From positions 1-56,804 of IMG/VR virus record IMGVR_UViG_3300032240_000220: a stretch of DNA of 56,804 bases; one strand, given 5' to 3'. The stretch comes from a virus. Shown piece by piece: positions 38,164-53,460 of this stretch. The translations under genes and the position numbers were made by a program. How positions within the stretch are numbered: the stretch's first letter is position 1; each line of letters starts with the position of its first letter. The notes beneath the pieces are model-generated. The model saw only the letters and a list, made by a program, of their open reading frames with translations, made no database searches and was not told the origin of the DNA.

Positions 38164-38511
38164 TTACCAGTTAGATTGGCTTTTATTCTTTTGAGCGGTA
38201 GATACTCCGCAAGAACTAAGATTTATTTTTCCACCAGTTGTGTAATTTTTACTAACCGAGCCACCTTTTTTATACATGGTCGCGTTTGGTGGTGAGCCAC
38301 CACCACCACCCAAAGCACTTTGGGCTTGCCCAATAGCACTAGCAATCGTAGAGGCTCCAGTATTGACTTGACCAAGTCCGTCTTGGGCAGATCCACCACC
38401 ACCGCCTAAACCACCACCCGCAATTGGGCCTTTAGGCATTTGAGGGGTTGTATTTCCATCAGTAGGAACTATGTCGTTCATCATTCCTCCAAGTGTTGCC
38501 ATTGGTGTCAT
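38164..38511 (-). CDS. Gly-rich virion-region protein with KKGG motif, 115 aa
   Basis: The start at 38511 (MTPMATLGGMMNDIV) is chosen because GGAAAAAAA precedes it; the earlier reading overlaps the neighbour. The protein is Gly/Ala-rich (GGGLGGGGGSAQDG) and has a MYKKGGSVSKNYTTGG segment near the C terminus, one of several occurrences of a Lys-Gly-Gly motif in this genome. The end contains one cysteine. It probably is a small head or neck component, but no known family is recognised. Confidence 0.65.
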   Translation of the reverse strand: MTPMATLGGMMNDIVPTDGNTTPQMPKGPIAGGGLGGGGGSAQDGLGQVNTGASTIASAIGQAQSALGGGGGSPPNATMYKKGGSVSKNYTTGGKINLSSCGVSTAQKNKSQSNW

Positions 38512-38521
38512 TTTTTTTCCT

Positions 38522-38776
38522 TTACCAGTTAGGACAATTCCAACGCTTGAGCGACGCTTTCGCTCTTGGTGCGTCACCCTTAGCATGTTCTACAACCCCA
38601 CTCATGCGCGCACAAAAGGAATCCTTGCGTGCTCCGCCTTGGGGTTGAGGTGCTTTTAAATTGCTTCCAGTTTCACGGTTGTATTTTGCCCGACCTTTGG
38701 CTGTTAATCCAGCACCTTTTTCAACGGACAACTTCTCACCGCGACCAACTGCAAGATTAACTTTTTTTTTGCTCAT
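38522..38776 (-). CDS. Conserved small phage protein (DUF6321-like), 84 aa
   Basis: An 84-residue basic protein: MSKKKVNLAVGRGEKLSVEKGAGLTAKGRAKYNRETGSNLKAPQPQGG, then RKDSFCARM and a KGDAPRAKASLKRWNC end. This signature (GLTAKGRAKYNR, APQP, SFCARM, RAKASLKRW) recalls the DUF6321 family of phage head-region proteins. The role is unknown. High positive charge suggests contact with DNA or capsid interior. It overlaps the upstream gene by 4 bases and precedes the Gly-rich 115-residue gene. Confidence 0.75.
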   Translation of the reverse strand: MSKKKVNLAVGRGEKLSVEKGAGLTAKGRAKYNRETGSNLKAPQPQGGARKDSFCARMSGVVEHAKGDAPRAKASLKRWNCPNW

Positions 38777-39051
38777 TTCACTTTGGCGGTTTTTGCTGAC
38801 TGCTTAAAGTCTTGAGCCGTTGGAGCGCCTTTGCTACCAACTCGGCGCATCTTTTCGCCAGAGCCTTCAGCGATCCGCTCACGTTTTGCATTAATATTTT
38901 CATACAAGCCACCGCCTTTAAATTTCTTGCCCTCATCAGCCTTGGCAAACTCTTTACCAACCTTTTGAGGAATGCCAGTTTTTTTGGCAAACGCAGGGTT
39001 ATGTGCGACCGCCGCCATTAAACGATGTTGTGAAGGTGATTTGCTGGGCAT
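38773..39051 (-). CDS. Small basic head-region protein with KKFKGGG motif, 92 aa
   Basis: A 92-residue lysine-rich protein. The start MPSKSPSQHRLMAAVAHNPAFAKKTGIPQKVGKEFAKADEG resembles a known class of short phage proteins that begin P-x-K-S-x-x-Q-x-R-L-M (DUF3008-like). KKFKGGGLYENINAKRERIAEGSGEKMRRVGS follows. It may be an internal head protein or DNA condenser. It is also part of the shared Lys-Gly-Gly motif group. It overlaps the next gene by 4 bases. Confidence 0.7.
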   Translation of the reverse strand: MPSKSPSQHRLMAAVAHNPAFAKKTGIPQKVGKEFAKADEGKKFKGGGLYENINAKRERIAEGSGEKMRRVGSKGAPTAQDFKQSAKTAKVK

Positions 39052-39053
39052 GA

Positions 39054-39335
39054 TTAGCCACAGAAAATTGTTACAGCCGCTCCAGAGGGCAGAGTGACGT
39101 GAACATCAGTGGTGAAACGGATCCCGTTGCCGGGGATGAGCGTGGCGATCACCGCTGTATTTACAGTAATGTTTACCCTCAACAAAACATTTCCACCAGA
39201 ACCACCATCACGAAACACAATCTCACCCGCAGTTCCACCAGAAGCAAGTTGATAGCCAGCAACATTTGTTGCTCCATTGTAAATAGTTCCAGTTGAATCA
39301 GCGTGCGCAGAAAATACATTAGTCAATGTTGACAT
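39054..39335 (-). CDS. Capsid decoration/head fibre-like protein, 93 aa
   Basis: A 93-residue, nearly all-beta protein (GYQLASGGTAGEIVFRDGG ... RVNITVNTAVIATLIPGNGIRFTTDVHVTL). The C terminus ends GAAVTIFCG, a hydrophobic strand. It resembles small decoration or head-spike proteins of aquatic phages. It is the first gene after the internal terminator at 39347-39374, so its transcription may depend on read-through. Confidence 0.55.
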   Translation of the reverse strand: MSTLTNVFSAHADSTGTIYNGATNVAGYQLASGGTAGEIVFRDGGSGGNVLLRVNITVNTAVIATLIPGNGIRFTTDVHVTLPSGAAVTIFCG

Positions 39336-39346
39336 TTAAATCTCCA

Positions 39347-39374
39347 ATTAAAAGTGGGAGCCGAAGCCCCCACT
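39347..39374 (-). terminator. Internal leftward terminator after the capsid block
   Basis: On the minus strand AGTGGGGGC-TTCG-GCTCCCACT forms a 9-base stem (one G-T pair) with a UUCG tetraloop and is followed by TTTTAATT. It lies in the 44-base gap between the 342-residue gene and the decoration-like gene. It would lower transcription of genes downstream of the capsid block. Confidence 0.75.
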
Positions 39375-39379
39375 CAGGT

Positions 39380-40408
39380 TTAGCACTTTACAGAACCACC
39401 ATACTTTTTAGCTTTTTCACTTGTAATTACAGTTGTCTTTTTAACATCTGAGGGTTTACCAGTAATATAGTTTTTAGCCTTGGTGTAAGCCTCTTTTACC
39501 ATGCTTATGGGATTTAACGCCTCCTCAAGATCACGGCTAGCTTTGTCAGTAATTACCTTTGGGTCAACGCTATTGCTAACAATGTCCTTCGCGTAAGTAC
39601 TGTCTCCGCCTTCTGCCATTTTCTTGACTCGACCACCCTTCTTAAAAGTACCAGACAGTGCAGAAATGCTCACAGGGGGGGAAGGTTTCTTACGGCCTTG
39701 TGGCATTGACTGCGCACCACCGTCATCCTGCACTACCGCACCACCCCTAGCATACTTTTTTGCAGAGCCGCCCTTTTTAAAGCCACCTGCATTACCAAGT
39801 TTGACGCCACCAGTAGTCGTGTTAGTCACGCCAGCAGGAGTACCGCTCACGTTACCGTTAACACCACCACCCTTGACGCCACCACCAGCTTTGTAACCAG
39901 CAGGCTTGTTCAAGCCCACTTGACCAGTTTTACCTGATGTTTTGGTGTTACGTTCGGCTGTATCTATTTTGGATTTACCCGAAGTAGATTTGATAATGCC
40001 ACTAGAAGCTAATGCTAGACCGCCTTTTTTAAAGCCGCCTTGAGCCATTACAACACCGCCAGTTGCAAACTTCTTACCAGCCATTGCCTTCTTGATCATT
40101 GCACGATCCTCTGCCGCATCTTCATGCTTCATTGAACCGCCTTTTTTCATTGCAGGCATAGCTGGGGCAGGCATTGGCATAGCAGGCTTGCTTGCCATCA
40201 TAGCTTTGCGACGCATTGCCATTGAAGGCTTTGCGGGGCTAGCAGTGGGCATCATGCCTCCGCGAGCGGGCATTGTGGACGCCATGCCTGCCTGCATGGG
40301 CATATACCCACCGTCAGCCATCTTGCTCACTTTGCCACCTTTTTTGAGCTTCAGTTCTACTGTAGGCTCTGTGGTCATCATTTTGACCATTGGCTTGAAT
40401 TGACCCAT
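39380..40408 (-). CDS. KKGG-motif-rich virion-region protein, 342 aa
   Basis: A 342-residue Gly/Lys/Ala/Met-rich protein dominated by repeats of KKGG-x-V/x-x-K-M/Y-A-x-GG type. Examples are LKKGGKVSKMADGG near residue 25, MKKGGSMKHED, GFKKGGLALASSG, GYKAGGGVKGGG, FKKGGSAKKYARGG and FKKGGRVKKMAEGG. Between them are Pro/Met-rich (PAMPMPAPAMPAMK) stretches. The C-terminal 80 residues are helical and charged, ending GGSVKC. I cannot assign a family. It sits beside a decoration-like gene and two genes from the major capsid protein, so it is likely a head component. It is a main carrier of the motif found elsewhere. Confidence 0.7.
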   Translation of the reverse strand: MGQFKPMVKMMTTEPTVELKLKKGGKVSKMADGGYMPMQAGMASTMPARGGMMPTASPAKPSMAMRRKAMMASKPAMPMPAPAMPAMKKGGSMKHEDAAEDRAMIKKAMAGKKFATGGVVMAQGGFKKGGLALASSGIIKSTSGKSKIDTAERNTKTSGKTGQVGLNKPAGYKAGGGVKGGGVNGNVSGTPAGVTNTTTGGVKLGNAGGFKKGGSAKKYARGGAVVQDDGGAQSMPQGRKKPSPPVSISALSGTFKKGGRVKKMAEGGDSTYAKDIVSNSVDPKVITDKASRDLEEALNPISMVKEAYTKAKNYITGKPSDVKKTTVITSEKAKKYGGSVKC

Positions 40409-40418
40409 GTGCTACTCC

Positions 40419-40868
40419 TTAGACTTTCTGGGCGTAAACCACTGTCAAGCGGAAAACACCTTGGGTTGTAAGAATAGTACCGTTGGGGTCAACAGTGATG
40501 TACACAGACTGGTTAGTTGTGATGTCTGCCATCGCCGCGGTTTGAGCCGCGGTGGGAGCAAATGTCAAACGACCACCAGCAATTCCATCAGTAGAGGACA
40601 TATATTGCGTACCCGCGGCGGCAGTGCCAACCGTAGTAGCAATAGACGTAGCGGTTCCTGCGCCTGCTGAAGCCACAGTTGTACCGTCGACTTTGATGTC
40701 GATGATCTGTGAGCTTGCTGGAAGGTATACAGAACTGCTTGTAGCAGTACCTGCGGAAGCAGTAGTAACGGTAGTGGTCTGAGAAACAACAACGTATCCA
40801 CCATCGGTGGAATCGGTTAATGTATCAGAGCCAGTACGTAGGGTGGAACCAATGTAGGTTTGTGCCAT
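40419..40868 (-). CDS. Decoration-like head protein, 149 aa
   Basis: A 149-residue Thr/Ala/Ser-rich beta protein (YIGSTLRTGSDTLTDSTDGGYVVVSQTTTVTTASAG) with a final LTVVYAQKV strand. The low complexity and the location directly after the major capsid gene fit a capsid decoration or stabilising protein. A hairpin (40889-40908) sits between it and the capsid gene. No specific family is identified. Confidence 0.65.
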   Translation of the reverse strand: MAQTYIGSTLRTGSDTLTDSTDGGYVVVSQTTTVTTASAGTATSSSVYLPASSQIIDIKVDGTTVASAGAGTATSIATTVGTAAAGTQYMSSTDGIAGGRLTFAPTAAQTAAMADITTNQSVYITVDPNGTILTTQGVFRLTVVYAQKV

Positions 40869-40888
40869 AGTCTTTTCTCCTTGTTGGA

Positions 40889-40908
40889 GCAGGGGGCAAG
40901 CCCCCCGC
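40889..40908. other. GC-rich hairpin between capsid and decoration genes
   Basis: Minus strand GCGGGGGG-CTTG-CCCCCTGC makes an 8-base stem (one G-T pair) with no T-run after it. It lies in the 51-base gap just after the capsid gene stop. It may stabilise the capsid mRNA 3-prime end or partly attenuate what follows. Confidence 0.55.
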
Positions 40909-40919
40909 CATTGTGGTGA

Positions 40920-41834
40920 TTAGACGCCGGGCGTGCCGTACATTGCACGAGGATCAGTGAAGCCCACTTGGTAACGCTCTGTCGCTTTGTAGCGCATAGA
41001 GTCAGTTTCAAAGTCGCCTTCCATGGTCTTCTCGAGCTTACGACGCATCAAGAGCTTCATGCCCTCTGGAGCATCGGTCTGTACCCACCATGCGTTTGCG
41101 TTTGTCAAACGAGACAACACAGCCGCGCCTTCGTCCAGCAAACCAATCGATTTGATTGGATTGATGTCGTTGTTGGCGTTGCCAGCACGGAGAACAGACT
41201 TCAAGAGCACTTCGGCTTGGAAGACGTTGCCGGGTGCCACAACCAATTGGCGTGGAACCAAACGAATCTTCTTACCGTTGTTGTCCACAGCCTGACGGAT
41301 TTGGATCAACATCTGCTCGAGAGAAGTCTGAGACAGGTTAGCGGCGGTGCTCAGCAAGTTGCTGAATGTGCCGTTCACGATTGGGTGAGAAGCGCTGTTC
41401 AATTGCACGCCGTCACCGCCGGGGTACGCGCTGTTAAACGCGCGGTTCAACACGTTAGCCGACAAAGTTTCCTTTGTTTCGATCAACGACTGAGCCAAGT
41501 GACGTGCATACACCTGACCAATACGGATGTGGTCACCGTCTTCAACCAAAACTTTGGTCAAAGCAAATGCCAAACCAAATACTTGGTAGACGTAGCGTTG
41601 CAAGAACAGAACACCACCTTGTTGGTAGCTCACAGGTGTGCCATCAGGCAACTGTGGAGCCGCGCCGAAACCGTACAAGACGGGTTCTTCGTGGTAGTTA
41701 CGTGGAATACCTTCTTGCTCACGGAATACCCGTGACCATTCATCGGTACGTTGGTCATAGACTCCGTCAAAACATTCGTTGAGAATTGGTTCAACGATGG
41801 AACGGAAGTCCGTACTGCGCATTGGAGCGGCCAT
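40920..41834 (-). CDS. Major capsid protein
   Basis: A 304-residue protein with the features of an HK97-fold major capsid protein, without the propeptide of some families. After an N-terminal arm (FRSIVEPILNECFDGVYDQRTDEWSRVF), the spine region contains ALTKVLVEDGDHIRIGQVYARHLAQSLIETKETLSANVLNRAF. A P-domain-like strand follows (RLVPRQLVVAPGNVFQAEVLL), and the C-terminal end has RYQVGFTDPRAMYGTPG. It is encoded directly after a 200-residue head protein and two genes downstream of the scaffold, with a decoration-like gene following. Among the head genes it is the one with the clearest capsid pattern. Confidence 0.85.
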   Translation of the reverse strand: MAAPMRSTDFRSIVEPILNECFDGVYDQRTDEWSRVFREQEGIPRNYHEEPVLYGFGAAPQLPDGTPVSYQQGGVLFLQRYVYQVFGLAFALTKVLVEDGDHIRIGQVYARHLAQSLIETKETLSANVLNRAFNSAYPGGDGVQLNSASHPIVNGTFSNLLSTAANLSQTSLEQMLIQIRQAVDNNGKKIRLVPRQLVVAPGNVFQAEVLLKSVLRAGNANNDINPIKSIGLLDEGAAVLSRLTNANAWWVQTDAPEGMKLLMRRKLEKTMEGDFETDSMRYKATERYQVGFTDPRAMYGTPGV

Positions 41835-41847
41835 GGTTCACTCCTCC

Positions 41848-42450
41848 TTATATAGCTGTACCAGCAGTACCAGCGAACTGGAACTTGGCAATAGTTGCAC
41901 GAACGATGACATAGTCATCACCCCAAGCGTTATCAGCATAGGGAGCGAGGTTAACAATCCGCATCTGAGCACTGCTACCAGAACCTACGAGCGAATTAGA
42001 TAAAGTTGCTTGTGACAAACCAGTGGTGGTAGAACCAGCAGTGGTGTTGCTCAAGTCAGCTTCGTCGCCAACAGAGGTTTGGGCAATAGTGCCGTCAGTT
42101 TGAATTTCGTAAACAATGTTAGGGTCAGAGTAGAAATAAGTTACAACTGAACCAACTTGGAACGACTCGTTGGCGGGCCAGTAATTGCTGACGCGACGAC
42201 GACCAGTGCTGTCAGTCCATTCGACGCCACTGAAGGCTCCGAGGAATGCATCACCAGCGGCGGCGACAACAATGTAACCTCCAGTGTTTTGCTTGACGGG
42301 CTGACCCTTCAAGATGGTTGTTGCATAACCAGCGGAGACGTTTCCGCTAGTTGACACAGCTTGAATACCGTTGGCGAGCGCCGTAGCGCGATCCAGACCT
42401 GATGGGTGGAAAGCAGGACGCAAACCGAACGGAGCGTTTGTTGAAGACAT
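41848..42450 (-). CDS. Head decoration/stabilisation protein, 200 aa
   Basis: A 200-residue beta-rich protein that begins SSTNAPFGLRPAFHPSGLDRATALANGIQ, a start I associate with capsid-adjacent decoration or vertex proteins of aquatic phages. The middle has strand-turn segments (AFLGAFSGVEWTDSTGRRRVSNYWPANE) and the end is an acidic/aromatic strand (DDYVIVRATIAKFQF). It is encoded just before the capsid gene, 13 bases away. The function is inferred from position and fold type. Confidence 0.7.
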   Translation of the reverse strand: MSSTNAPFGLRPAFHPSGLDRATALANGIQAVSTSGNVSAGYATTILKGQPVKQNTGGYIVVAAAGDAFLGAFSGVEWTDSTGRRRVSNYWPANESFQVGSVVTYFYSDPNIVYEIQTDGTIAQTSVGDEADLSNTTAGSTTTGLSQATLSNSLVGSGSSAQMRIVNLAPYADNAWGDDYVIVRATIAKFQFAGTAGTAI

Positions 42451-42474
42451 AGTCTTACTCCTATTTGGTTGCCT

Positions 42475-43026
42475 CTAGCCCTGAAAAACAGGAGCTTTGG
42501 ATGAGGCGTTTTGGTCAAAATTGCCAAACCCATCTCCTTCAACCTGCGTCAGACTTCTGCCTGAGCTATCGCGTTGACCTTGCATTTGTTCGACTTGGAG
42601 CTTGATTTTGTCAGCCTCTTCCATCGGCAATTCATGGTGCATGTGCAACATAAGGTCTTGGTAAATTTCCATAGGAATTTTGCACAAGAGCATTTCGTTA
42701 CACGCAATAAAACCAACGTGCTCGCCAGCCTTTACGCGGTAGTTGTCGAAACCGGGGAACTCTTCAGACTTAACTGGAACGTACCCAATCCGAAACCGCT
42801 TATCGATGCTGTCATAACTGTTAGTGGTTGATAACCAGATGAGATGCCACCCTTCTAACTCGGGTGTCTTTGGCAGTGCGCTTTGTGTCCACTCATCACT
42901 CCACATCTTGCGACGTTCCTGTGCTGACATGAACTTCCCTTCGGGGGCAGACCTTGATGCGTCCTCACTTGCGCGAGTTTCGCGTCCACCAGCGGAGAGA
43001 GATTTTTTGAGACGAGATTCTGTCAT
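42475..43026 (-). CDS. Hypothetical head-region protein, 183 aa
   Basis: A 183-residue protein. After a basic, polar start (LKKSLSAGGRETRASEDASRS), residues about 35-130 form a compact alpha/beta domain (MWSDEWTQSALPKTPELEGWHLIWLSTTNSYDSIDKRFRIGYVPVKSEEFPGFDNYRVKAGE), followed by a Q/D-rich tail. I do not know the family but have the impression of having met the WHLIWLSTTN block near head genes of other aquatic phages. It lies between scaffold and decoration genes and is probably a head assembly or virion protein. Confidence 0.7.
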   Translation of the reverse strand: MTESRLKKSLSAGGRETRASEDASRSAPEGKFMSAQERRKMWSDEWTQSALPKTPELEGWHLIWLSTTNSYDSIDKRFRIGYVPVKSEEFPGFDNYRVKAGEHVGFIACNEMLLCKIPMEIYQDLMLHMHHELPMEEADKIKLQVEQMQGQRDSSGRSLTQVEGDGFGNFDQNASSKAPVFQG

Positions 43027-43035
43027 GTTTAGTCC

Positions 43036-43992
43036 TTAGTAGTTGTTGTTACGTGCTTCAATTGCATAACGCTTGATCATCTTTGCGCGCTTTTCTTTGT
43101 CATCCCAAAAGCCTGCGTCCTTCATAGCTCTCACTTGTTCTGGTTTCAGAATAAATGAATTTCTTGAGCCATTGCCAGAAAAATTTTCGCGTCCTGAGCT
43201 AGTTACAACACTCCTTGGTCTTGCACGAGTAGGTCTCTCGTCGGTGTCGTCAGTATACCTATGTGGAAGGCGCTTTTGCAAGCGTTTATCCAACTCTTCC
43301 CAATATTCTGATTGATTGGGGTTCCAACCTTCTTTCACCAACTTTTGATCGATGATCTTGGCTATCTCGCTATCCTCGTCATCACCCTGTGGGTCATACC
43401 AAGAATTTCGCTCCATCCAACGTCCAGCTTGGCGTTGTAATTCACGGTTGTCTTCTGGTGAAGCTGAAGTGTGCTTAACAGCAGACTCCTTCATGCCCTT
43501 GAGGCTTTCAACCTGTCTGCGGGTGTCGTACCACATCTCTTGCGCTTTGGCAAAAGCGTCTCCGTCACCAGCAGAAGTTGCCTCAGACATCTTCATGCGG
43601 GCATATTGCAGGCGCAGTTCCTGATCCTCGATGGCTTTGTCCATGCGGGCTAAGTCTGCGCTGTTGGTCTTGCGTTCCACAACCGAGAGGCGTTCTTGCA
43701 ACTCTTGGTTCTGGCGCAGTAGGTTTTGCATACGAACGTCTTTTTCGGCGTTGGTCTGCTTGATGTATTCTTTCTTAGCCTTACGGCGCGAGCGACGAGC
43801 GGCTCGGATGGCTTCAGTGTCGTCAGGATGATCGTCGTCTCCGCCATCATCTCCTGCGGCACCACCTTCGGCACGCTGTTCGTCTTCACCCTCGTCGTCT
43901 TGGGCTAAGTGATCTGGAAGTTCTACAACGGCTCCGCCGTCCTTCTCTTCCATGACTTTAATGTCGTCTGACTCTTTGATTTCTGTACTCAT
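43036..43992 (-). CDS. Capsid scaffolding protein
   Basis: A 318-residue acidic protein with a strongly negative N terminus (residues about 30-75, DDEGEDEQRAEGGAAGDDGGDDDHPDDTEA). A basic patch follows (RAARRSRRKAKKEY), then a long coiled coil (QNLLRQNQELQERLSVVERK ... EDQELRLQYARMKM) and a charged C-terminal part. This is the common profile of podovirus scaffolding proteins, which steer capsid assembly and then leave. It sits between the co-chaperonin and capsid genes, as expected. The function is inferred from composition and order. Confidence 0.8.
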   Translation of the reverse strand: MSTEIKESDDIKVMEEKDGGAVVELPDHLAQDDEGEDEQRAEGGAAGDDGGDDDHPDDTEAIRAARRSRRKAKKEYIKQTNAEKDVRMQNLLRQNQELQERLSVVERKTNSADLARMDKAIEDQELRLQYARMKMSEATSAGDGDAFAKAQEMWYDTRRQVESLKGMKESAVKHTSASPEDNRELQRQAGRWMERNSWYDPQGDDEDSEIAKIIDQKLVKEGWNPNQSEYWEELDKRLQKRLPHRYTDDTDERPTRARPRSVVTSSGRENFSGNGSRNSFILKPEQVRAMKDAGFWDDKEKRAKMIKRYAIEARNNNY

Positions 43993-44423
43993 ATAAAAGC
44001 TTTCATTGCTAGGGGGTCACCAGTTAATTTGGCAATGACTTCGTGGTCGTTAAGCACCATGAAAAGTGCTGGATCCTCTAAGTCATCTTCGTTTGGGACT
44101 TTTACTTCCCAACGATCTCCGCCCCATTTAGGGACTCGGATATAGTCACCAATATCAACCCATGTGCCTTCGGGCCATGGTTGCATGGTGTCACGGTGCT
44201 TGAACGCAATCGGCCCTATCGCCAATACTTTTGCAACCATGTTTTGCCATTTCTCGGTTTCCTTGGTCTCATTGATCAAGATAATCCCTGCGCTTGTTGC
44301 CTTCTTCTGTGTTCGACGGAGTTGAACCAAGATTCTTCCGCCAAGAGGTAGTGCGCCGGGGTCAACGCTCGGGAATGCCCAAGCTAATTCAGCGTCGTTA
44401 GACGCTACGGTGCTATCACTCAT
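43989..44423 (-). CDS. GroES-like co-chaperonin
   Basis: A 144-residue Cpn10-type protein. PLGGRILVQLRRTQKKATSAGIILINETKETEKWQNMVAKVLAIGP is the GroES core, with the mobile loop around KKATSAGIIL, and GDYIRVPKWGGDRWEV is the closing barrel strands. Host GroES is about 97 residues. The extra length lies in the N-terminal 20 residues, a middle insert and a C-terminal extension. Phage-coded GroES homologues (T4 gp31 is the classic case) help fold large capsid proteins in the GroEL chamber. Its place between the portal-side small genes and the scaffold fits that role. Confidence 0.85.
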   Translation of the reverse strand: MSDSTVASNDAELAWAFPSVDPGALPLGGRILVQLRRTQKKATSAGIILINETKETEKWQNMVAKVLAIGPIAFKHRDTMQPWPEGTWVDIGDYIRVPKWGGDRWEVKVPNEDDLEDPALFMVLNDHEVIAKLTGDPLAMKAFI

Positions 44424-44601: not shown

Positions 44602-44750
44602 TATTTTTTCTTCGCGTTAGCCAGTCCTCCTTGTTTTGGGGCGTTTCCACCCTTTGGTTGCATAGATGTACCGTCAAGCTTCTCACCCATGGCGATGCGC
44701 TTGTGTTGTGGTACGTTGATACCTTTTTGCTCTTGATCACTGGTAGCCAT
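44601..44750 (-). CDS. Small basic KGG protein, 49 aa
   Basis: A 49-residue gene whose ATG overlaps the portal coding end by 14 bases, with GGAAA upstream and its stop shared as TAATG with the next gene. The protein is polar and basic (VPQHKRIAMGEKLDGTSMQPKGGNAPKQGG, ending KKK). It carries a minimal KGG/QGG relative of the motif found in other head-region proteins. Confidence 0.65.
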   Translation of the reverse strand: MATSDQEQKGINVPQHKRIAMGEKLDGTSMQPKGGNAPKQGGLANAKKK

Positions 44751-47256
44751 TTTGATTTCCTTGGTTCAGGGTGGTTAATGCAGAATTTCTCTGCTCAATT
44801 TGCATCTTGGCTTTGTCGCGGGTGAGGCGAGCCGCTTCGATGCGCTCTTTAGTCTCGTTATCACCTTCAGCGATAGCGAGCTTGAGTTGGTTGTCTTCCG
44901 CGGCAATAGCCATCTCGTCTTGATGCTTTTGCTGGGCAAGTTGTACGTCTGCTTGGTCGCGCTTGGCTCGGCGCTCTGTCTCTGCCATGCTTGTTTGCTG
45001 AAGAACCATTGCCTCTGGCGTCATTGGAGGCTTAGGCGCGTACTGTTGCATTTGTTGCATCATCTGTTGGATCACAGGCATGATTCCGCTAAAGACTTGC
45101 TCAGTATCCAAGTTCACATGGCGTGAAGCCAAGGCAAACAACTGGTCAATCTGCTCAGTCTTCTCAGAGTCGTCGTAATCCTTCACAGGGTGTCCAACAG
45201 ACTTGGTGACGTATCCATTCATGCGGTTCAAGTACCACAGCGTTAAGTGCTGTTTAACGTGCTCCATGGCATGTGGAATGAATGCTGGCGCAATCAATGG
45301 GTTGCCACCCAAGATTGGATCTTTGGCAAAGTCCAAATGAGACTGGATGTGAGCCAAGTGGTCTTGCTCGATGTACGCAAACGCCGCCTGCCCAATCGCC
45401 ATAGCCACGTTCTCGTTGGCTGGGTCGCGCTTCTCTGGGTCTGGTACATCCTTTAATAATTCATTTATGGATGGAACCTTCAACTGCTTGAGCAGACGCT
45501 CTTCCACAGCTTTGACGTTGTACAACTCTGGGTGCTTGTCAGCGCGAGACACGACTGCCTGAATCTGCGCCATGCGCTGGGTTTCAGAGAAGATGTGTGG
45601 GTCAGAGACTGGGACAACGTCGGTGTTGCGCATGAAGTCTTCGCGCTTGACCTCAAGGTCAGCAACAACGTCACCACGCTTTTGTTCGTCCAAGTACCAG
45701 CGGTTGAGGCGTGACAAGACCTTCAGGACACGGCTCTGGGACTCGTGGAGGCGGGCGTGGATGGCGGAGAACACAGCCGCTCCCTGCTCAATCAGCGCCT
45801 GTGTGGTGCCTACAGGAGCGTTGGCGTTGATGTCAGCAATCTTCTCCTCAGCGGTGGTGACCACACCTTTGGCTGACGTCTCCAAGAAGCCCATGAGCTT
45901 GAACAAGACCTCGCTAGGAGGGTTGAAGGGCATGGGCATGGCGATCTTGCGGATGTCATCGACGCCCGGCGCGCCCTCAATCTCCGCTATCTGCGTTACT
46001 TCGACCTGCTGGGATTGTCCCGAGATGCGCGCTCCTTTGAGCTTGAGCATTGTCGCGGCGTTATTGATGTGAGCCGAATCAAGCAAAGCACGAAGAGACC
46101 CAGTAAGAGCGGCGCTGAGACCACCGATAAGATGAGGTAAACCAATTGCATAAGCACCCCTCCAAGGAATGAACTTGAACTCGATAATGTGATCGAGCTT
46201 GGTCATCGTGTCGTCGCCCTCTTCCCAGTTACGGTAGAGACCAACCACAGTGTTGTCCATCTCGTCGACCATCAAGATGTATGGAGCCATTTCTCCGCCA
46301 GTTCTGCGGTCGTCCTCTAACTCCATGTATGTGTAGATGTGATAGACGCGACGGATACCGTCCTCGCTGTCTTCAAACTTCTTACCCTCAATCTTGTTAG
46401 ACGCCTTCTCTGGGCCTGTCGGATCGGGTTCCATGGTTGCACGAACATAGTTCGTGTCACGGTACAGACCTGAACGCACGCGGTTCTGATACTCCCAGTC
46501 TGATATGTCCATCACCTCTGTCACGCGCTGAGCGGTGTAAAAGTTGGCAGACGCAAAGGGGAGGAGGATGTTGTCAATCGGGACAAACTCAGCGCATGGG
46601 CGTCTCTTCTTCTCGTCGTAGTAGAGCTTTAGGAACTGTGAGCCACCCAGAGGTAGCTGGGTCAGCATCTGCTCTTGCTCGTCGCGGAATTCCTCGATCT
46701 GCTCGGTCAATTGCCAGTTCATGTAGTCACGCTTGCGCTCAGCGACGGCAGTCTTCTCTTCGTCTACGTCACCCAAAATCTTGGTGCGGGTTGGGCCATC
46801 AGGTGGAAACAATTCCTTGATAGCACGAGCGGCAAAGTCAACGCAGGCTTCAGCCATGACAGGGTGGACAACTTTGCTAGCGCCGTTGAAGTTCGCTCCG
46901 CCGGGGGCGTCATTCCCCATGCCTGTGCGTCTGATTCCATCCTCGTACTGCTTGTCACGCTCCTTGCGCGCATCCTTGTCCTTCTCCGCTAGACCGATGT
47001 AGCGCAGGGCGATAGAGTCCAAGTCATAGGATGAGATGTCATCGCTGTCCGCCAAATTGGCGTAGAAGTCTTCATCCTCGGAGGGGCCTTTGTAGTCCTC
47101 CATCGTGACAACAGCCGAGCCGTCAGGAAGCTCCTCGATCTCTGAGTCATCAAGGTTGATGTCGACAGCAACGCTACCGTCTTCTTGTTCTTGCATCCCT
47201 GAAATACCTTCGATATTGCGGTCGAATTCGGGATCAATGGGCATTTCTGTAGCCAT
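44737..47256 (-). CDS. Portal protein
   Basis: An 839-residue portal with an acidic N-terminal arm (about 1-75) and a core containing RYIGLAEKDKDARKERDKQYEDGIRRTGMG, EFVPIDNILLPFAS and HIIEFKFIPWRGAYAIGLPHLIGGLSAALTGSLRALLDSAHINN, the last resembling the wing/stem signature of P22-like portals. A stem-crown region (TTAEEKIADINANAPVGTTQALIEQGA) follows, then a long alpha-helical C terminus (QQMMQQMQQY ... DQADVQLAQQKHQDEMAIAAEDNQL) that would form a barrel. The length fits large P22-type portals. It makes the dodecameric DNA gate. RBS AGAAGG. Confidence 0.9.
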   Translation of the reverse strand: MATEMPIDPEFDRNIEGISGMQEQEDGSVAVDINLDDSEIEELPDGSAVVTMEDYKGPSEDEDFYANLADSDDISSYDLDSIALRYIGLAEKDKDARKERDKQYEDGIRRTGMGNDAPGGANFNGASKVVHPVMAEACVDFAARAIKELFPPDGPTRTKILGDVDEEKTAVAERKRDYMNWQLTEQIEEFRDEQEQMLTQLPLGGSQFLKLYYDEKKRRPCAEFVPIDNILLPFASANFYTAQRVTEVMDISDWEYQNRVRSGLYRDTNYVRATMEPDPTGPEKASNKIEGKKFEDSEDGIRRVYHIYTYMELEDDRRTGGEMAPYILMVDEMDNTVVGLYRNWEEGDDTMTKLDHIIEFKFIPWRGAYAIGLPHLIGGLSAALTGSLRALLDSAHINNAATMLKLKGARISGQSQQVEVTQIAEIEGAPGVDDIRKIAMPMPFNPPSEVLFKLMGFLETSAKGVVTTAEEKIADINANAPVGTTQALIEQGAAVFSAIHARLHESQSRVLKVLSRLNRWYLDEQKRGDVVADLEVKREDFMRNTDVVPVSDPHIFSETQRMAQIQAVVSRADKHPELYNVKAVEERLLKQLKVPSINELLKDVPDPEKRDPANENVAMAIGQAAFAYIEQDHLAHIQSHLDFAKDPILGGNPLIAPAFIPHAMEHVKQHLTLWYLNRMNGYVTKSVGHPVKDYDDSEKTEQIDQLFALASRHVNLDTEQVFSGIMPVIQQMMQQMQQYAPKPPMTPEAMVLQQTSMAETERRAKRDQADVQLAQQKHQDEMAIAAEDNQLKLAIAEGDNETKERIEAARLTRDKAKMQIEQRNSALTTLNQGNQNGYQ

Positions 47257-47269
47257 GTTTTAGCCTTCT

Positions 47270-49264
47270 TTAATTTCTACTTATAAGATCAAGCAACATT
47301 GTGTCTGGATTCTGAGACATATGAACTCGACCACCTCTTTTAAATACTGTTCCTTGGATGACGTTACCGCCGTCTTGCATGTCTGGATCAGTGTTGTATT
47401 CGCCACCTACTGCCGCCTTTACTACGCCACCATCAGCAAACATAGGCAAGCCTTGGGTGGTTATCTCTTGGCGCATCTGAGGGGTGATGTCAAAACTGTG
47501 GAACGGAATTGTTTTGACTTCAGGCTCTTCAACCAATATGCCAGCTTCATTTTCATACGGGTTTAAAAATCCAGTTTCAACTTCATGAGGATGGTGCATT
47601 TGCACTTGGGTGTTGTACTTCTTGCCGAATTCATTGAGGTATGAGGGGATCATCTTGTCGTAGAAGCCCTGCATTCCTTCGCCACCGACTTGCAGATCAA
47701 GACCACTCAATGACCGTTTTCCTTCGCTCACGCTTCCAGCAGGGTACTCAGTGCCTTGGTTTTGTATGATTTTCTGAGCCATCTCTTTGCCGACAGTATC
47801 TTCTAGCTCAGACTGAGAAAGGTTTGATTTGCTTATGGCTGGTCTGTTGTTCTTGTCAATTGCTGTTATCGAGTAAGTGCCATCAGGATTTACGCCATAA
47901 CTGATTTCATTGATCTGCTTGCTGAGGTCATAGCGCTTGGCTTGCTCCGCCCCGGGGGTAATCGCTATCTTGTCATATCCATTTTCCGCGGCGTAGTTGA
48001 GCAGGCGTTTCATCGCTAGCTCGTGCCAGTTCTTTTTAAATGGCGCGTCAGGTACGGCTTCTTGCTCATTTAATCTTGCTTGATGCATTGCTATTCTTTT
48101 ATCTTCTTCACCAGCAAATTTAGCAAGCCCTATAGGATTGTCAGCCATCCTTTTTGCCATCTTATCTGCAAGTTCTTCTGCTCTTTCATCAGGGACACCG
48201 CTTGTCAAATAATCTTGTTTTACGGTTTGCTTTACTCTTTCCTGCAAATCCTTTAAATAATCTACGTATTCTTGTTCGGCATTTCCTCTGTATCCCTTCT
48301 TACGCCCCTCTTGATGCCAGTCAGACTGAATCTCTTCGACGTGGAGAACTTTTTGTGTAGCGCCTGTGGTGTCTACGTTCCTAAAACCTTTGGCGTGGGA
48401 GAACTGAGCCGCCTCTAACGGAGTGATCACCCCTCTTTGTACAGCAATGCTAGGCGCTCCACTTGCTAAGCTCTTTGCATCAACACCCAAGGATTCAGCC
48501 ATTCTCTTGCCGATGTCTTCAATCTGAGCCTTGGTGTAGGTTGGAGTTATCCTGTCCTGCACACGCATGTGGGCTAGCACGTTAGGTTCATCCCAGTGTT
48601 TGGACTGGTAATCTTGCTTGGGGTTTTTGGCTAACTCTCTGAGTTGATTTAACTCTTGCATCTCTTCTGGAGTAATGTTGCCAAAGTTGCGACCAACTGA
48701 TGACCGTCTCTCCTTGGCTTCTAACTCAAACATGCGTTTTTGATTTTTCTTTGCGTCAGAAGGTAGACGCATCAGTATCTCGCGGTAGTTTTGTCCACCC
48801 TCAGTTTTGTAATCGTGGTATTTAGTTCCCAACCCTTGATCAATGATGTGCTCACGAGCAAGATCGAGGTATCTTTGTTCCTCGTTATACATCTTGTCCT
48901 CAAAGATAGCGTCGACATCATCCTCAGTCTCAAAGCGGTTACGGCTATTCATGCCTGCTTCTTCAACAGCATCATCGTGCATGAACTGTTCAGCAAGCTC
49001 GCGCACCTCTTTCTGGGTGGGTTCTCCAATTTGCGTCTCACGCAATTGAGGAGGAGGGAGTTCTTTCAGCTTGGTGAGGAACTCTTCTTTGGACATCTTG
49101 GGCATCTCAATGATGCGTTCGAGCTTGCGAGCTTGTATCTCTATGGGTTTTACCCCTTTGATCTTGGAAAGCTCAGTGATGAATTCTTTGCCAGTTCCTT
49201 TGTTGCGCTTGAGCGCCTCAGCCGCCTTGTCTAGCGCGGAGTAGAAGCCTTTGATCTTGCTCAT
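47270..49264 (-). CDS. Polyvalent-type protein, 664 aa
   Basis: A 664-residue protein. The first 230 residues are charged and helical. Residues about 310-325 (VLHVEEIQSDWHQEGRKKGY), a following PFKKNWHELAMKRLLNYAAENGYDKIAITPG segment and GMQGFYDKMIPSYLNEFGKKY near 540 match the large-polyvalent-protein-associated domains described in phage polyvalent proteins. The C-terminal 60 residues hold MFADGG and FKRGGRVHMS, the shared Gly-Gly motif. Polyvalent proteins are thought to be ejected with phage or plasmid DNA and to disarm host defence. No clear toxin or enzyme module is seen. It lies just upstream of the portal. Confidence 0.7.
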   Translation of the reverse strand: MSKIKGFYSALDKAAEALKRNKGTGKEFITELSKIKGVKPIEIQARKLERIIEMPKMSKEEFLTKLKELPPPQLRETQIGEPTQKEVRELAEQFMHDDAVEEAGMNSRNRFETEDDVDAIFEDKMYNEEQRYLDLAREHIIDQGLGTKYHDYKTEGGQNYREILMRLPSDAKKNQKRMFELEAKERRSSVGRNFGNITPEEMQELNQLRELAKNPKQDYQSKHWDEPNVLAHMRVQDRITPTYTKAQIEDIGKRMAESLGVDAKSLASGAPSIAVQRGVITPLEAAQFSHAKGFRNVDTTGATQKVLHVEEIQSDWHQEGRKKGYRGNAEQEYVDYLKDLQERVKQTVKQDYLTSGVPDERAEELADKMAKRMADNPIGLAKFAGEEDKRIAMHQARLNEQEAVPDAPFKKNWHELAMKRLLNYAAENGYDKIAITPGAEQAKRYDLSKQINEISYGVNPDGTYSITAIDKNNRPAISKSNLSQSELEDTVGKEMAQKIIQNQGTEYPAGSVSEGKRSLSGLDLQVGGEGMQGFYDKMIPSYLNEFGKKYNTQVQMHHPHEVETGFLNPYENEAGILVEEPEVKTIPFHSFDITPQMRQEITTQGLPMFADGGVVKAAVGGEYNTDPDMQDGGNVIQGTVFKRGGRVHMSQNPDTMLLDLISRN

Positions 49265-52200
49265 AGTGGGCGTTCCTCAATGATTAGGTCGTCGCCAGTG
49301 ATCTCGCCACCCTCAGCCATTTTCTTAACCTTGCCACCCTTTTTCTTACCAGTGAGCTTCTTCATCATGTCTTCGTACTGTTTGATCTCGTCAATCATTT
49401 GCTGGTCAATGACTTGGCGAGGGCCTACCATCTTGAAGCTACCGAACTCTTGACCTGCTTGGGCGGGGTTCTCGCGGACGGACTTTAGGGTGTCAGGGAA
49501 GGACAGTTCGTAGGGGACAGGGTACTTAAGACCCCCGAGGAATTGACCGGGGATGTCGTGCGAGTACGTCGGATGGGAGGACAACTTCAAGTCTGTCACA
49601 TCAGGCTTCATCAACCCTAGCGACTTACCTGTCACCCCAATCTCGAGGTCACGCAGGCTTGGCTCCGTCACCGCATGGGCTACGTCCAATCCGCTTGGCA
49701 TGTTGAACTTCTCAGTCACCGTGGGCATTTGCATCAGGTTGCCAAAATGCTTGCGCATGTCTGGGTCAAGTGCGAACTGTAGATACATCTCTTCTGGGCG
49801 CTCGATCCCGGGGAACGAGGGGAAAATGCGCTGGCGCTTCACCTTCTTGCTGTCCACATATGGATAGCCCTCACGCACCATCTTGTTAAAGCCCTCGATC
49901 TGCCTCTTAGTCATCTCTTCTGGGCGAAGGTTTTGAATGTTTGTGTCCGCAAAGTGCTGGGCGTAACTGTAGGAGTCAGGCCCCATCATCACGTAATTGC
50001 CAACCACTGGCGACTCATGCAACTCAGACAGAGCCTTGGCGCGGTTCTGCACCCCTTGCGCCGCTCCAAGGTTTGATGCCCAGAACTCATCATCCTTGCC
50101 TAAGCCGTACAAAGGGCCTCCATGCTGTGGAGCAGGCGAGCGCAGGGTTCTGCCAGCCACTGAATGGATCGTCTGTCCTGAGATGGTTGGATCGCCTGAG
50201 ATACCCATCATCACGTTGCCCTTTAGGCTCTCGATGTCCACAGGGTTGACTGGCGGACGCTCAACACCTTCCGTTGGGCGGATGTCGTGCTCTAGCGTCT
50301 TCTCGCGCTCGAACTGCTTCTGAGTCTTGCCTGCCACAGTCTTCGCGGTCTTGTCACTTGCGCGGACGTACTCACCAGTCATCTGAGGTGCAATGCGTTG
50401 GGCGATGGCTTCAATCTCTGCCTTGCTCTTAGCAGGGGCGCGTGCAAGCTTGATGAGCTTCTCAACTGCTCCGCCTTTGCCTTTGTTTTGTTCACGTTCT
50501 GCCTGCTCACGAGCCATGCGATCCATCTCTTCACGAATCTGCTCGTTGGTCATCTGGAAGGGTTTGACCTCGTTGTACGGGATTGAGGCGGTCTCAGCCT
50601 TGTACTTGTTCATCAGGTTGACTCTGGCTTGGAACTCAGGCTTCAACGCCTTCATGCGCTCGAGTGCCTCGATAGCCGCCTTGCTCAGTGATCCACCTGC
50701 ACTCATGTGCTGATCCATCACAGCCATGTGTTGGCAGTCGGAGTTGTCAGAGATGGAGACCTTACCGCCCTTCTTCATGCCAGCTTCTGGTGGGGGAGGA
50801 ATGTCAATGCCTAATTCTTTTTTGGCTTGGTTAATCTTTTCTATTGCACGAGCAATAGGAGCGTATTTTGTTTCGCCGCTCTCCATCCAGTCTTCTGGTC
50901 TAGTCAAAAGCGCTTTTAATTCGTTGTAAGTGTAAGGAACATTCTTTGAGATTGTCTTACCTGCATTGGTTTGCAACTCAGTGTATTCAGGGCTTGGTAT
51001 GGCTCCACTGAATTCATCAAAAGCTTTATTGCTAAGTCGATGCTGTTCAAGCGCAGGATGCGTGTCTAAAAAGTTTACAGCCTCAGAAACCAAAGGCTGA
51101 TACTTTGCTTCTGCTTCTGGATGAGTCAAATAGTCAGAACCAAACTTACTCAAACCAGTGTTTCGCAAGTCGCCAACGTCTGACCATTGATCACCTCGCA
51201 CAAAATCCTGTACGTAAGGCAGATACTGTTCTTTAGGCGCTTGGTTTTGTTTGCCTTTGATCTGGACAATTTGAGGAGGCATTTCGCTTTGCTTCTTGTC
51301 TAGCAATGCAAATTGCAACTCTTTTACTCTGTTGTTATAGAACTGATCGCGCTGAGGAAATGTTGCAAAGTTTTGAGCGTTGGCTTCATTGTTTGCCTGC
51401 TCATAAATTGCATTCATTTCGTTATGGTCAGTGCGCGCTTGGCTTGGTCGAACCTCAATAGTCACATGAGGCTCACCACGCTTATCACGCAGGCTATAAA
51501 TGCGTGACCTGCCCTCTATTACATCAGGACAGTAGCCACCTACGCAGTGACCCATGGTGTCGCCTTCGTACTTGAGGGCGTTTTCAAGCAACTGCCTTGG
51601 ATTGCCGGGCGCGTCTGGATGCCTGTTATACAAGTTTTTAATAAGATCAGGCAAGTCACTTCCAATAACTCGCACGCCTTCAGGAGATACAGCGCGCACA
51701 ACACCACCTTTTGGCTCAATCATTTTCCAGCCTTTAGGAAGTACATTTGGCATTTTTGGCGTAGCCAACTCAACCCACTTGTATCCCTCTGGATATTCTT
51801 TGTGCAGTGGCATTCCCTCAGTGTTCTTGATCTGAGTCTCAGCCATCTTCTTAGCCTGCTCAGCGTTGAAGTCCGCGGCGCGCTTGATCGCTTGATCTAC
51901 CGTGATCTTGTTGAGTTGCTCAGGGCGGATGCGACCCGCCATAACGTCTTGCTTGAGGACGTCAACAACATGGTCAAAGCCAAGGTTGTAAATGTCGCCA
52001 GAGTAAAGCGTGGCTTCTGGGTCGAGCTTGCTTATCCAAGGATTTTGTTCGCCAGTTACGAAGTCGTTGCCTGAGAGCCTACCTTGTAAGTTGGCTTGCT
52101 TGACTCGAAGTTGCCCAAACTCTTCGCCCTCGCCAATCATGTTCGCCTTGTCATACGTGGACATCTTGTCCATCAAGCTTTCTAATTCATCTGGCTTTAA

Positions 52201-53460
52201 GACAACTTTGCCTTCCAAATATTTTCTAAATTTCTGATCTATCTCAAGTTCTTTTTCTAATAGCTGTTGCGTTACCTTCTGAGCTTCTGGCATTATTCCC
52301 AAAGCTTCTTGGATGTCTCCAGCCCTTCTGGTTTGGATGGCTTCATCACTAAGGTTCTCCCATGCTTTGGCAGGCATAGACTTAGCCTCACCCTCGGGAT
52401 TAAAGCCAGCCTTCTCACGCTGTCCTCGCATGTCCCTGTCAGAGACGTATTTTGCTGATTCTTCCACTTCATCCGCTGGCATGTGGGTGATGTGCTTCAT
52501 AGCAAAGTCGCGGTCAAACTCAGCCTCAGACGCTAACCTGTCAGCCTCTCGGGTCAGGTTGGCTTGTCTGCGTGGGTCAGCTTCTTGTTGGGCACGCTCT
52601 TTTGTACGGTTAGCGCGCTCCATGTCCTTGGCGTACTTGCTCTCGACCTCTTGCACGCGATTCTCAAACATCAAGCGCACTGGATCGTTTGGCGTAGCCA
52701 TCTGCTTCTTGACGTAGTTGCCAAGGTTCTGGGTTACCCACTTGTCGAGCGCCGCCTCTTTCTTCGTTGTGTCAAGGTGACGCTGAATGATTGCGCGACC
52801 ATCATCATTTATGGCTGGGTCTAGCAACGCACGCTCATGCAAAGGAATGCGTTCAGCAGGTGTTTGGTTAACAATAGTTGGCGTGGTCAGTCGATTGAGC
52901 GATCTGTCCACGCTGTTCATCAAGTCGCCACCAGTCCAGTTACCGCCTTCAGGCTTGACCACATTTGTTATCGCCATGCGTGGGGCTAGGGCGGAGAGTG
53001 GGCCAGAGGACAGAGGGCCAGTCTGGTGAATCAGGGCATCATTGATTGCTTTGCCAGTCATCCGCGTGCCAGCGCCGAGACCACGTCCTAAGCCGTAGGT
53101 CACAGCTTTAGCCGCTGTGCCAGACAACGGAGCAGGGGCAAACTCACCCATCGATCCATACATCTCAGCGGTGTGCTTGCGTGATGGGGATGCGTTCTGC
53201 GGTACAGCAGGAGGAAGCATCTGGTTCATCTCTTCAGTCGTTGGCATGACGCGACGACCAAAAACGGATTGCATTGTCTCTGGTGCTATTGCGCGTGCAA
53301 CATCGCTGATGTCACCAGCCGCGCCCGCTGTGCCTGCAACAGAACCACGCAGTGCGCCTGCCATCATGTCGCCCAATGCTTGGGCTGGTTCTGCAAAGCT
53401 CTTGAGGTCAGAGACTACTCTATCAAGCGTGAGTTGGCGTTGAGCGCGAGGGTTGGGCAT
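49261..53460 (-). CDS. Giant polyvalent-type protein with PcfJ-like domain, 1399 aa
   Basis: A 1,399-residue multidomain protein. An N-terminal Ala/Gly-rich helical part is followed by a long coiled-coil region (about 230-430) and a helical centre. Near residues 635-665 the GHCVGGY segment and following RIYSLRDKRGEPHVTIEV match the PcfJ-like domain seen in polyvalent and conjugation proteins. KKGGKVSISDNSD is near 897. A conserved block around 1115 (QHGGPLYGLGKDDEFWAS) is typical of large polyvalent proteins. The C terminus carries KKKGGKVKKMAEGGEITGDDLI. It overlaps the 664-residue partner by 4 bases. A DNA-co-injected defence-countering or transfer protein is the best inference. Confidence 0.7.
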   Translation of the reverse strand: MPNPRAQRQLTLDRVVSDLKSFAEPAQALGDMMAGALRGSVAGTAGAAGDISDVARAIAPETMQSVFGRRVMPTTEEMNQMLPPAVPQNASPSRKHTAEMYGSMGEFAPAPLSGTAAKAVTYGLGRGLGAGTRMTGKAINDALIHQTGPLSSGPLSALAPRMAITNVVKPEGGNWTGGDLMNSVDRSLNRLTTPTIVNQTPAERIPLHERALLDPAINDDGRAIIQRHLDTTKKEAALDKWVTQNLGNYVKKQMATPNDPVRLMFENRVQEVESKYAKDMERANRTKERAQQEADPRRQANLTREADRLASEAEFDRDFAMKHITHMPADEVEESAKYVSDRDMRGQREKAGFNPEGEAKSMPAKAWENLSDEAIQTRRAGDIQEALGIMPEAQKVTQQLLEKELEIDQKFRKYLEGKVVLKPDELESLMDKMSTYDKANMIGEGEEFGQLRVKQANLQGRLSGNDFVTGEQNPWISKLDPEATLYSGDIYNLGFDHVVDVLKQDVMAGRIRPEQLNKITVDQAIKRAADFNAEQAKKMAETQIKNTEGMPLHKEYPEGYKWVELATPKMPNVLPKGWKMIEPKGGVVRAVSPEGVRVIGSDLPDLIKNLYNRHPDAPGNPRQLLENALKYEGDTMGHCVGGYCPDVIEGRSRIYSLRDKRGEPHVTIEVRPSQARTDHNEMNAIYEQANNEANAQNFATFPQRDQFYNNRVKELQFALLDKKQSEMPPQIVQIKGKQNQAPKEQYLPYVQDFVRGDQWSDVGDLRNTGLSKFGSDYLTHPEAEAKYQPLVSEAVNFLDTHPALEQHRLSNKAFDEFSGAIPSPEYTELQTNAGKTISKNVPYTYNELKALLTRPEDWMESGETKYAPIARAIEKINQAKKELGIDIPPPPEAGMKKGGKVSISDNSDCQHMAVMDQHMSAGGSLSKAAIEALERMKALKPEFQARVNLMNKYKAETASIPYNEVKPFQMTNEQIREEMDRMAREQAEREQNKGKGGAVEKLIKLARAPAKSKAEIEAIAQRIAPQMTGEYVRASDKTAKTVAGKTQKQFEREKTLEHDIRPTEGVERPPVNPVDIESLKGNVMMGISGDPTISGQTIHSVAGRTLRSPAPQHGGPLYGLGKDDEFWASNLGAAQGVQNRAKALSELHESPVVGNYVMMGPDSYSYAQHFADTNIQNLRPEEMTKRQIEGFNKMVREGYPYVDSKKVKRQRIFPSFPGIERPEEMYLQFALDPDMRKHFGNLMQMPTVTEKFNMPSGLDVAHAVTEPSLRDLEIGVTGKSLGLMKPDVTDLKLSSHPTYSHDIPGQFLGGLKYPVPYELSFPDTLKSVRENPAQAGQEFGSFKMVGPRQVIDQQMIDEIKQYEDMMKKLTGKKKGGKVKKMAEGGEITGDDLIIEERPL

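Follow-up and report, generated by a model that had tools for sequence, protein, structure and literature searches.

Lys-Gly-Gly tails on polyvalent-type proteins of an aquatic phage group: candidate C-terminal capsid-loading tags

In phage T4, incorporation of the internal protein IPIII depends on its ten N-terminal residues, fusions bearing this sequence are packaged, and the internal proteins vary between relatives with recurrence of sequences resembling the capsid targeting sequence (passages of PMC9026906). In phage P1, a heterologous reporter enters the capsid when it bears the first 30 residues of DarB (passages of PMC9024508), and for phage polyvalent proteins packaging and injection were predicted from gene context and a few cases (passages of PMC5512222). 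Here we describe short Lys-Gly-Gly elements in head-region proteins encoded by the IMG/VR virus record IMGVR_UViG_3300032240_000220 (G000; 56,804 bases, analyzed as a whole and hereafter called the window), in which the late genes are on the minus strand. The elements form the C-terminal tails of two adjacent polyvalent-type proteins of 1399 and 664 aa and occur in multiple copies in a basic 342-aa protein (the hub). By analogy with T4 and P1, we tentatively read the tails as a C-terminal capsid-loading tag, which would be the counterpart of the N-terminal tags of those phages.

Lys-Gly-Gly elements and their tail types

A first-pass annotation of the window had proposed that one motif, (K/R)(K/R/E)GG-x-(V/L/M)-x-x-(M/Y)-A-x-GG (the strict motif), recurs in seven unrelated virion proteins, mostly near the C terminus; this is too simple. 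The strict motif has three sites in two proteins, all on the minus strand: two in the 342-aa protein (KKGGKVSKMADGG, first base 40345; KKGGRVKKMAEGG, 39643) and one in the 1399-aa protein (KKGGKVKKMAEGG, 49344), with KKGGSAKKYARGG of the 342-aa protein (39778) one position short. A core form, [KR][KR]GG.[VAILM], has nine sites in four genes (shuffle means 0.37 and 0.33) and extends the carriers to the 664-aa protein (FKRGGRVHMSQNPDTMLLDL) and the 140-aa protein (ORF 38164-38586, listed in the annotation as a 115-aa protein through being read from Met26). The 92-aa protein, which matches six PHROGs families including two named virion structural protein, is a weak carrier, and two of the seven fail. 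The 49-aa protein has PKGGNAPKQGG but belongs to its own family with a GGL..AKKK end (a 42-aa protein in the same place in Caulobacter phage KcrB ends DGPKGKC), and the element of the 1716-aa protein precedes DxIxAxLxDGE(Y/F)V, a sequence also present near the end of a 580-aa protein of KcrB, where neither the 342-aa protein nor polyvalent proteins were seen. The C-terminal position holds for the 1399-, 664- and 140-aa proteins, but the 92-aa protein has its element mid-protein and the 342-aa protein has copies along its whole length. Two internal elements of the 1399-aa protein had been overlooked, GMKKGGKVSISDNSDC...GG (residues 894-923) and KGGAVE (residues 995-1000). Gene position suggests that the carriers are located in the virion.

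The motif is rarer in shuffled sequence: no strict site occurred in 300 global or 300 local shuffles of the 69 called genes, and shuffled C-terminal 40-residue (C40) tails showed no link, which rules out chance or low complexity as its origin. The statement that the tails belong to no named family also stands, for the 342-aa protein (no match in Pfam, PHROGs or NCBIfam at E 0.01) and for the small and large carriers tested against these databases. The Pfam KGG stress-induced repeat, which has a repeated Lys-Gly-Gly core like that seen here, gave no match at E 0.01 in the ten proteins scanned, and tblastn of two tail peptides against phage records returned E values of 4-9 only.

The 1399-aa protein contains a PcfJ-like segment (residues 628-683; PF14284 PcfJ, 29.6 bits, cut-off 25); the model of its residues 881-1399 was too poor for use (mean pLDDT 48.5). 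In the AlphaFold2 model of the 664-aa protein (mean pLDDT 76.6), residues 612-651 have pLDDT < 50 and are followed by a low-confidence helix (residues 653-663). Foldseek of this model against BFVD gave 22 matches at E ≤ 0.001, of which four bear the names of large polyvalent protein or ART-PolyVal domains, and against PDB 182 matches at E ≤ 10 with none at E ≤ 0.001. The stop codon of the 1399-aa gene and the start codon of the 664-aa gene are joined in ATGA (49261-49264), an overlap at the EERPL end that suggests translational coupling.

In relatives selected by the 664-aa protein (the best 80 of 229), adjacent genes carry two tail types. Ends of the 664-aa type often read K(K/R)GG(K/R)V....N(P/R)D(T/A)MxxEL (NxDTM type), and ends of the 1399-aa type often read (K)xAxGGxIxxDDLI(L/I)EER(P/K)L (EERPL type). 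An IMG/VR pattern scan for the EERPL type, in which a stop codon was not demanded, matched 92 stretches, of which 80 were examined; all 79 in-frame carriers end exactly two residues past the match, the match in L210 lying at the contig end. The pattern GG.[IV]..[DE]DL[ITL] was found no more than 20 residues from the C-terminal end in 135/135 occurrences (ORFs of at least 100 residues; not de-duplicated). For the NxDTM type (89 loci matched, 80 examined), 33 of 95 sites are exactly eight residues before the C-terminal end and 62 have at least 53 residues after them; the internal sites often read GMK(R/K)GGxVxISxNPDTMxMEL...GG. One further sample took in 80 of at least 120 stretches. Tails are also swapped, with both types in tandem in three loci (L213, L264 and L261); in L293 and L312, GEYQKQMKALTGKKKGG precedes an NxDTM tail and looks by eye like a 1399-type end. 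Other GG ends consist of (K/R)GGL with basic residues or of a PD(M/V/I)(S/T)D element; in the form (Y/F)(N/D)TxPD(M/V/I)(S/T)D, the latter occurs beside or in place of the KGG tail in 16/140 distinct C-termini by pattern (proteins beside portal, L002-L407). Among non-hub carriers of the strict motif, the last motif is within 35 residues of the C-terminal end in 85/107 distinct proteins. Thus, a short peptide is common to proteins with otherwise different domains, mostly inside two gene families in which the segments before the tail vary.

The C-terminus was compared with other positions and other proteins in ORFs of at least 300 residues with a stop codon from 158 loci, with unclassed proteins placed by position. 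The 664-aa-selected loci were pooled for this count, and for the clustering below, with capsid-selected loci (the best 80 of 583 confirmed; close relatives with capsids 94-100% identical to the query), L138 and L166 being outside the C-terminus count; de-duplication was only by identical last 40 residues, so kindred sequences count several times. K/R..GG is present in the last 45 residues of 105/140 distinct C-termini of proteins encoded between terminase and portal, against 6/75 for portal, 5/58 for terminase, 4/67 for the scaffold-like protein, 0/29 for capsid, 0/43 for the 357-aa protein (p357) and 3/95 for unclassified plus-strand ORFs; it occurs in 450/2815 internal windows of the same terminase-portal proteins and in 64/64 hubs. 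In the capsid-selected subset the corresponding counts are 27/42 against 5/47 (portal), 0/9 (terminase), 3/51 (scaffold), 0/24 (capsid) and 0/42 (p357). When 40-residue segments of 129 proteins were grouped at E 1e-3 in single-linkage clusters, which can chain, the C-terminal ends formed 15 clusters, compared with 32 for N-terminal ends, 42 for positions -80 to -40, 47 for -120 to -80 and 70 for mid-protein segments, and shuffled C-terminal ends showed no link. At 1e-5 the C-terminal ends formed 21 clusters, chiefly two of 49 and 45. The C-terminal 40 residues are thus the segment shared most, and in each of the two gene families the tail is preserved whereas the sequence directly ahead of it differs.

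The multi-copy hub and its phage group

The hub, which starts with MGQFKPMV, or a similar multi-KGG protein was detected in 71/80 capsid-selected loci; eight of the nine loci without it have < 1.3 kb after the capsid gene, and the exception is L404 (2.1 kb). The capsid gene is 61-1768 nt upstream of 170/188 complete hubs; of the remainder, 17 have too little upstream DNA and for one (L446) none was found. The 157 distinct hubs have 180-557 residues, a median net charge of +38 (range 23-50), about 14% K and 16% G, and 1-10 copies of [KR]GG (median six). A C-terminal cysteine is present in 138/157 distinct hubs, with exactly one cysteine in 116/157, and also on 47/103 distinct tails of other strict-motif carriers.

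Contigs with the strict motif usually encode further relatives of window genes, mostly from the head region (118 among the 120 matches listed), which places the strict form largely in a single phage group that shares this head module. The phage records nearest to the window by terminase and capsid are the uncultivated Manatee Spring phage MW202545 (capsid 88% identical) and four Caulobacter phages (capsid 77%). Twelve of the 21 phage records with a capsid match were examined, over chosen genes of the fetched stretch. Of these, MW202545 encodes a many-copy hub, and its 890-aa protein bears several elements; DSL-LC04, Pra-JY27/MinM2 and ct7L0027 have several elements, and HTVC027P has a few GG ends. 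The start of the hub was also found on two contigs in bacterial genome bins, labeled Betaproteobacteria and Akkermansia, which are only hints of phage hosts.

Possible capsid loading and competing explanations

The nucleotide sequences of the tails point to conservation of the peptide. The EERPL type is represented by 69 distinct nucleotide tails coding for 23 peptides, with divergence at 46% of comparisons for 4-fold sites and 12% for first/second positions; for the NxDTM core (14 distinct) the values are 33% and 15%, the low first/second-position divergence being partly built in because the search patterns fix many residues. Given the divergence at 4-fold sites, the DNA itself is not frozen, and a common, selected signal at the peptide level is supported. 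The common signal proposed in the first-pass annotation thus holds in so far as C-terminal tails are shared, synonymous sites vary and tails recombine, but there are several tail types that share a GG core. Among the functions offered there, the best fit is capsid loading, given the analogy with T4 and P1.

We posit that the elements are short C-terminal and inter-domain tags of head-region proteins in one large group of aquatic phages. Each would consist of a flexible Gly/Lys tether, [F/Y/M]K(K/R)GGxV, and a short end piece, which may be KKMAxGG...DDLIxEERPL, NPDTMxxELxxK, or GGL with basic residues. The tags would be borne by polyvalent-type proteins whose other domains vary, with related K(K/R)GG elements in multiple copies on the basic hub. 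During prohead assembly they could dock their proteins to a partner inside the head (hub, acidic scaffold or shell), such that enzymes with different domains would be loaded via one interface and would afterwards enter the host together with the DNA; the large tailed proteins are probably injected into bacteria. We infer the virion location, docking partner, loading and injection from these comparisons. The tails have features that such tags would be expected to have, being short, shared across domains, modular and, in one predicted structure, flexible. In a more elaborate version, which we consider quite doubtful, interchangeable KGG tail types would form a C-terminal code for phage effectors, loading polyvalent proteins with different domains into the head through the multi-KGG hub acting as a dedicated adaptor, perhaps anchored or released by its single C-terminal cysteine.

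Several observations weigh against capsid loading by these tails. With 62/95 NxDTM sites internal, the element is not purely a C-terminal tag. Of the 140 C-termini, 35 fail K/R..GG, and although 16 of these retain an ERxL or NxDxMxxEL form at the end, others (e.g., L393, L405 and L406) have no recognizable tail. N-termini are shared too, though less (clusters of 38 and 31 at E 1e-3), and a signal at the N-terminus, like those of T4 and P1, may still operate. KcrB, with a capsid 77% identical, has no visible hub and no annotated protein gene between terminase and portal; in the genes examined of CRP-901, QDWS535, HTVC023P, ct2G2228 and ct2os315, the hub is absent and such elements are few or missing. 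Two of these, Roseobacter phage CRP-901 and Alcaligenes phage QDWS535, have capsid proteins 37-43% identical; in CRP-901, the 526- and 857-aa proteins encoded next to the portal do not bear such tails. The strict form is not needed for the head module. Relatives without the KGG hub also have the acidic scaffold N-terminus, so the idea that basic tails are drawn to an acidic scaffold is not specific. Literature searches, at the level of titles and opening lines of abstracts, found neither virion proteomics of any carrier nor this motif.

A possible next-gene start overlaps the EERPL tail in 77/77 distinct tails (ATGA in 58, GTGA in 13 and TAATG in six, the last read from the printed sequence), and the start of the 664-aa gene is a real instance of this overlap in the window. 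The last leucine of the tail is encoded by CTA or CTG only (69/69), and either codon before TGA automatically gives ATGA or GTGA; a translation-start constraint may therefore account for part of the EERxL end. An alternative is that tails and linkers are seams of domain shuffling, kept as flanks of exchanged domains and, in the EERPL type, for the next-gene start that the DNA also carries, without binding a dedicated partner. That explanation, which we regard as doubtful, would accommodate the NxDTM elements found between domains as well as at ends, and a canonical Shine-Dalgarno 4-mer is present in the 17 nt examined in 31/70 EERPL tails. However, the other 39/70 lack it, a constraint on the start region does not explain the shared GG, I/V and DDL upstream, the synonymous sites have diverged, and the tails of the hub and small carriers are shared as well.

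If the elements instead bound DNA or charged polymers, basic glycine-rich tethers would retain proteins within the packaged genome or would compact it. The charge of the hub is consistent with this, but the C40 net charge is only +2 in the 1399-aa protein and -1 in the 664-aa protein, and DDLIxEERPL and NPDTMxxEL are acidic or helix-like and not basic; we consider such binding rather unlikely. Distinctly unlikely is processing, whereby a protease would cut at GG to remove the tails or part the domains of the polyvalent proteins. GG elements do lie between segments of large proteins, head proteins of T4 and SPN3US are known to be cleaved at multiple sites (passages of PMC5694885), and the capsid protein matches phrog_4523 and phrog_133 (head maturation protease), albeit only along their C-terminal capsid-like parts. 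Against this, no separate prohead-type protease was detected with Pfam among 20 further window proteins scanned, and in the EERPL type the residues after GG are strongly conserved, unlike those of a discarded stub.

We rank capsid loading above any single rival, as a possibility held with limited confidence. If it is correct, the tails would provide a sequence rule for spotting head-carried, injected phage proteins in a group that is well represented in metagenomes of aquatic origin. Proteins of unknown function with such tails could then be flagged as candidate early effectors, and proteins of choice might be loaded by means of this C-terminal equivalent of the T4 and P1 signals.

Gene order of the window and comparison with known systems

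The late genes are ordered terminase, 1399-aa protein, 664-aa protein, portal, 49-aa protein, 61-aa protein, Cpn10/GroES-like protein and scaffold-like 318-aa protein, followed by two more proteins, capsid, 149-aa protein, 342-aa protein, 93-, 92-, 84- and 140-aa proteins and the adaptor-like 357-aa protein (Table 1). A GroES/Cpn10-like gene is also annotated in all 11 phage records for which the retrieved sequence includes this position. A search for solved structural relatives gave none for the capsid protein and one match for the portal (E 0.37).

Table 1. Coordinates of head-region genes and Lys-Gly-Gly elements in the window
Feature	Position	Strand	Remarks
Terminase large subunit	53514-54956	-	adjoins 1399-aa gene
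1399-aa polyvalent-type protein	49261..53460	-	ORF; between terminase large subunit and 664-aa genes
Internal element GMKKGGKVSISDNSDCQHMAVMDQHMSAGG, 1399-aa residues 894-923	50692..50781	-	diverged K(K/R)GGxVxISxNPDTM copy; internal in relatives too
Internal element KGGAVE, 1399-aa protein	50461..50478	-	
1399-aa C-terminal tail KKKGGKVKKMAEGGEITGDDLIIEERPL, residues 1372-1399	49264..49347	-	strict motif and EERPL tail type
664-aa polyvalent-type protein	47270..49264	-	start codon overlaps 1399-aa stop
664-aa tail, residues 612-664	47273..47431	-	AlphaFold2: predicted disordered, short end helix
664-aa C-terminal element FKRGGRVHMSQNPDTMLLDLISRN, residues 641-664	47273..47344	-	NxDTM tail type
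Portal	44737-47256	-	PHROG portal match
GroES/Cpn10-like gene	43989-44423	-	Pfam match; inside head module
Scaffold-like 318-aa protein	43036..43992	-	assigned by position and composition; acidic N-terminus (N-terminal 60 residues (N60), net -20); candidate docking partner
Major capsid protein (Phage_capsid_4 / Mu gpT-like)	40920..41834	-	Pfam; marker used to define relatives
342-aa hub	39380..40408	-	very basic (net +38), low-complexity, multi-KGG; downstream of capsid gene
Strict motif KKGGKVSKMADGG, hub residues 22-34	40307..40345	-	
Near-strict motif FKKGGSAKKYARGG, hub residues 210-223	39740..39781	-	
Strict motif in FKKGGRVKKMAEGG, hub residues 255-268	39605..39646	-	
Hub C-terminus GGSVKC	39383..39400	-	terminal cysteine
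FKGGGLYENIN, mid-92-aa protein	38890..38922	-	weak carrier, not strict
84-aa DUF6321 protein	38522-38776	-	Pfam match; stands alone in window
YKKGGSVSKNYTTGG, near C-terminus of 140-aa protein	38230..38274	-	core form, strict form not met

Certain other genes of the window gave informative matches. The DUF6321 stretch, a protein by itself here, forms the C-terminal end of longer proteins in several PHROGs families and may be another mobile C-terminal module. The 357-aa protein (37081-38154) has a weak SU10 adaptor-like match and a possible F5/F8 type C (discoidin) segment, both below cut-off, and a 211-aa protein (22671-23306) has a strong SU10 adaptor-like match (E 1.9e-24). A strong match to a TET-associated glycosyltransferase at 2818-3813 (E 1.5e-46) is a hint that the phage DNA contains glycosylated modified bases.

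The tails resemble the T4 capsid targeting sequence (IPIII, IPII and Alt) in being a short peptide shared by different proteins, which in T4 are internal proteins that it loads into the head. The T4 sequence is N-terminal, 10-20 residues long and cut by gp21 (passages of PMC5694885), whereas the elements described here are C-terminal or inter-domain: the EERPL type is C-terminal in all occurrences and the NxDTM type in 33/95. For removal of the tails in the manner of gp21, the same 20 proteins gave no separate protease match. P1 DarB provides a further parallel, as its signal is carried by a very large protein, in that case an antirestriction protein, although at the N-terminus. For the phage polyvalent proteins (Iyer et al., 2017), passages of PMC5512222 mention no shared C-terminal Lys-Gly-Gly tail; in the text, 'glycine', 'linker' and 'C-terminus' occur 0 times, though 'C-terminal' occurs 20 times. 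Like the 1399- and 664-aa proteins, these proteins are large and encoded beside portal and terminase, a gene place that is seen both in the window and in relatives. With regard to a multi-domain composition, the PcfJ-like segment alone passes its cut-off, and the fold of the 664-aa protein matches proteins named for LPD or ART-PolyVal domains.

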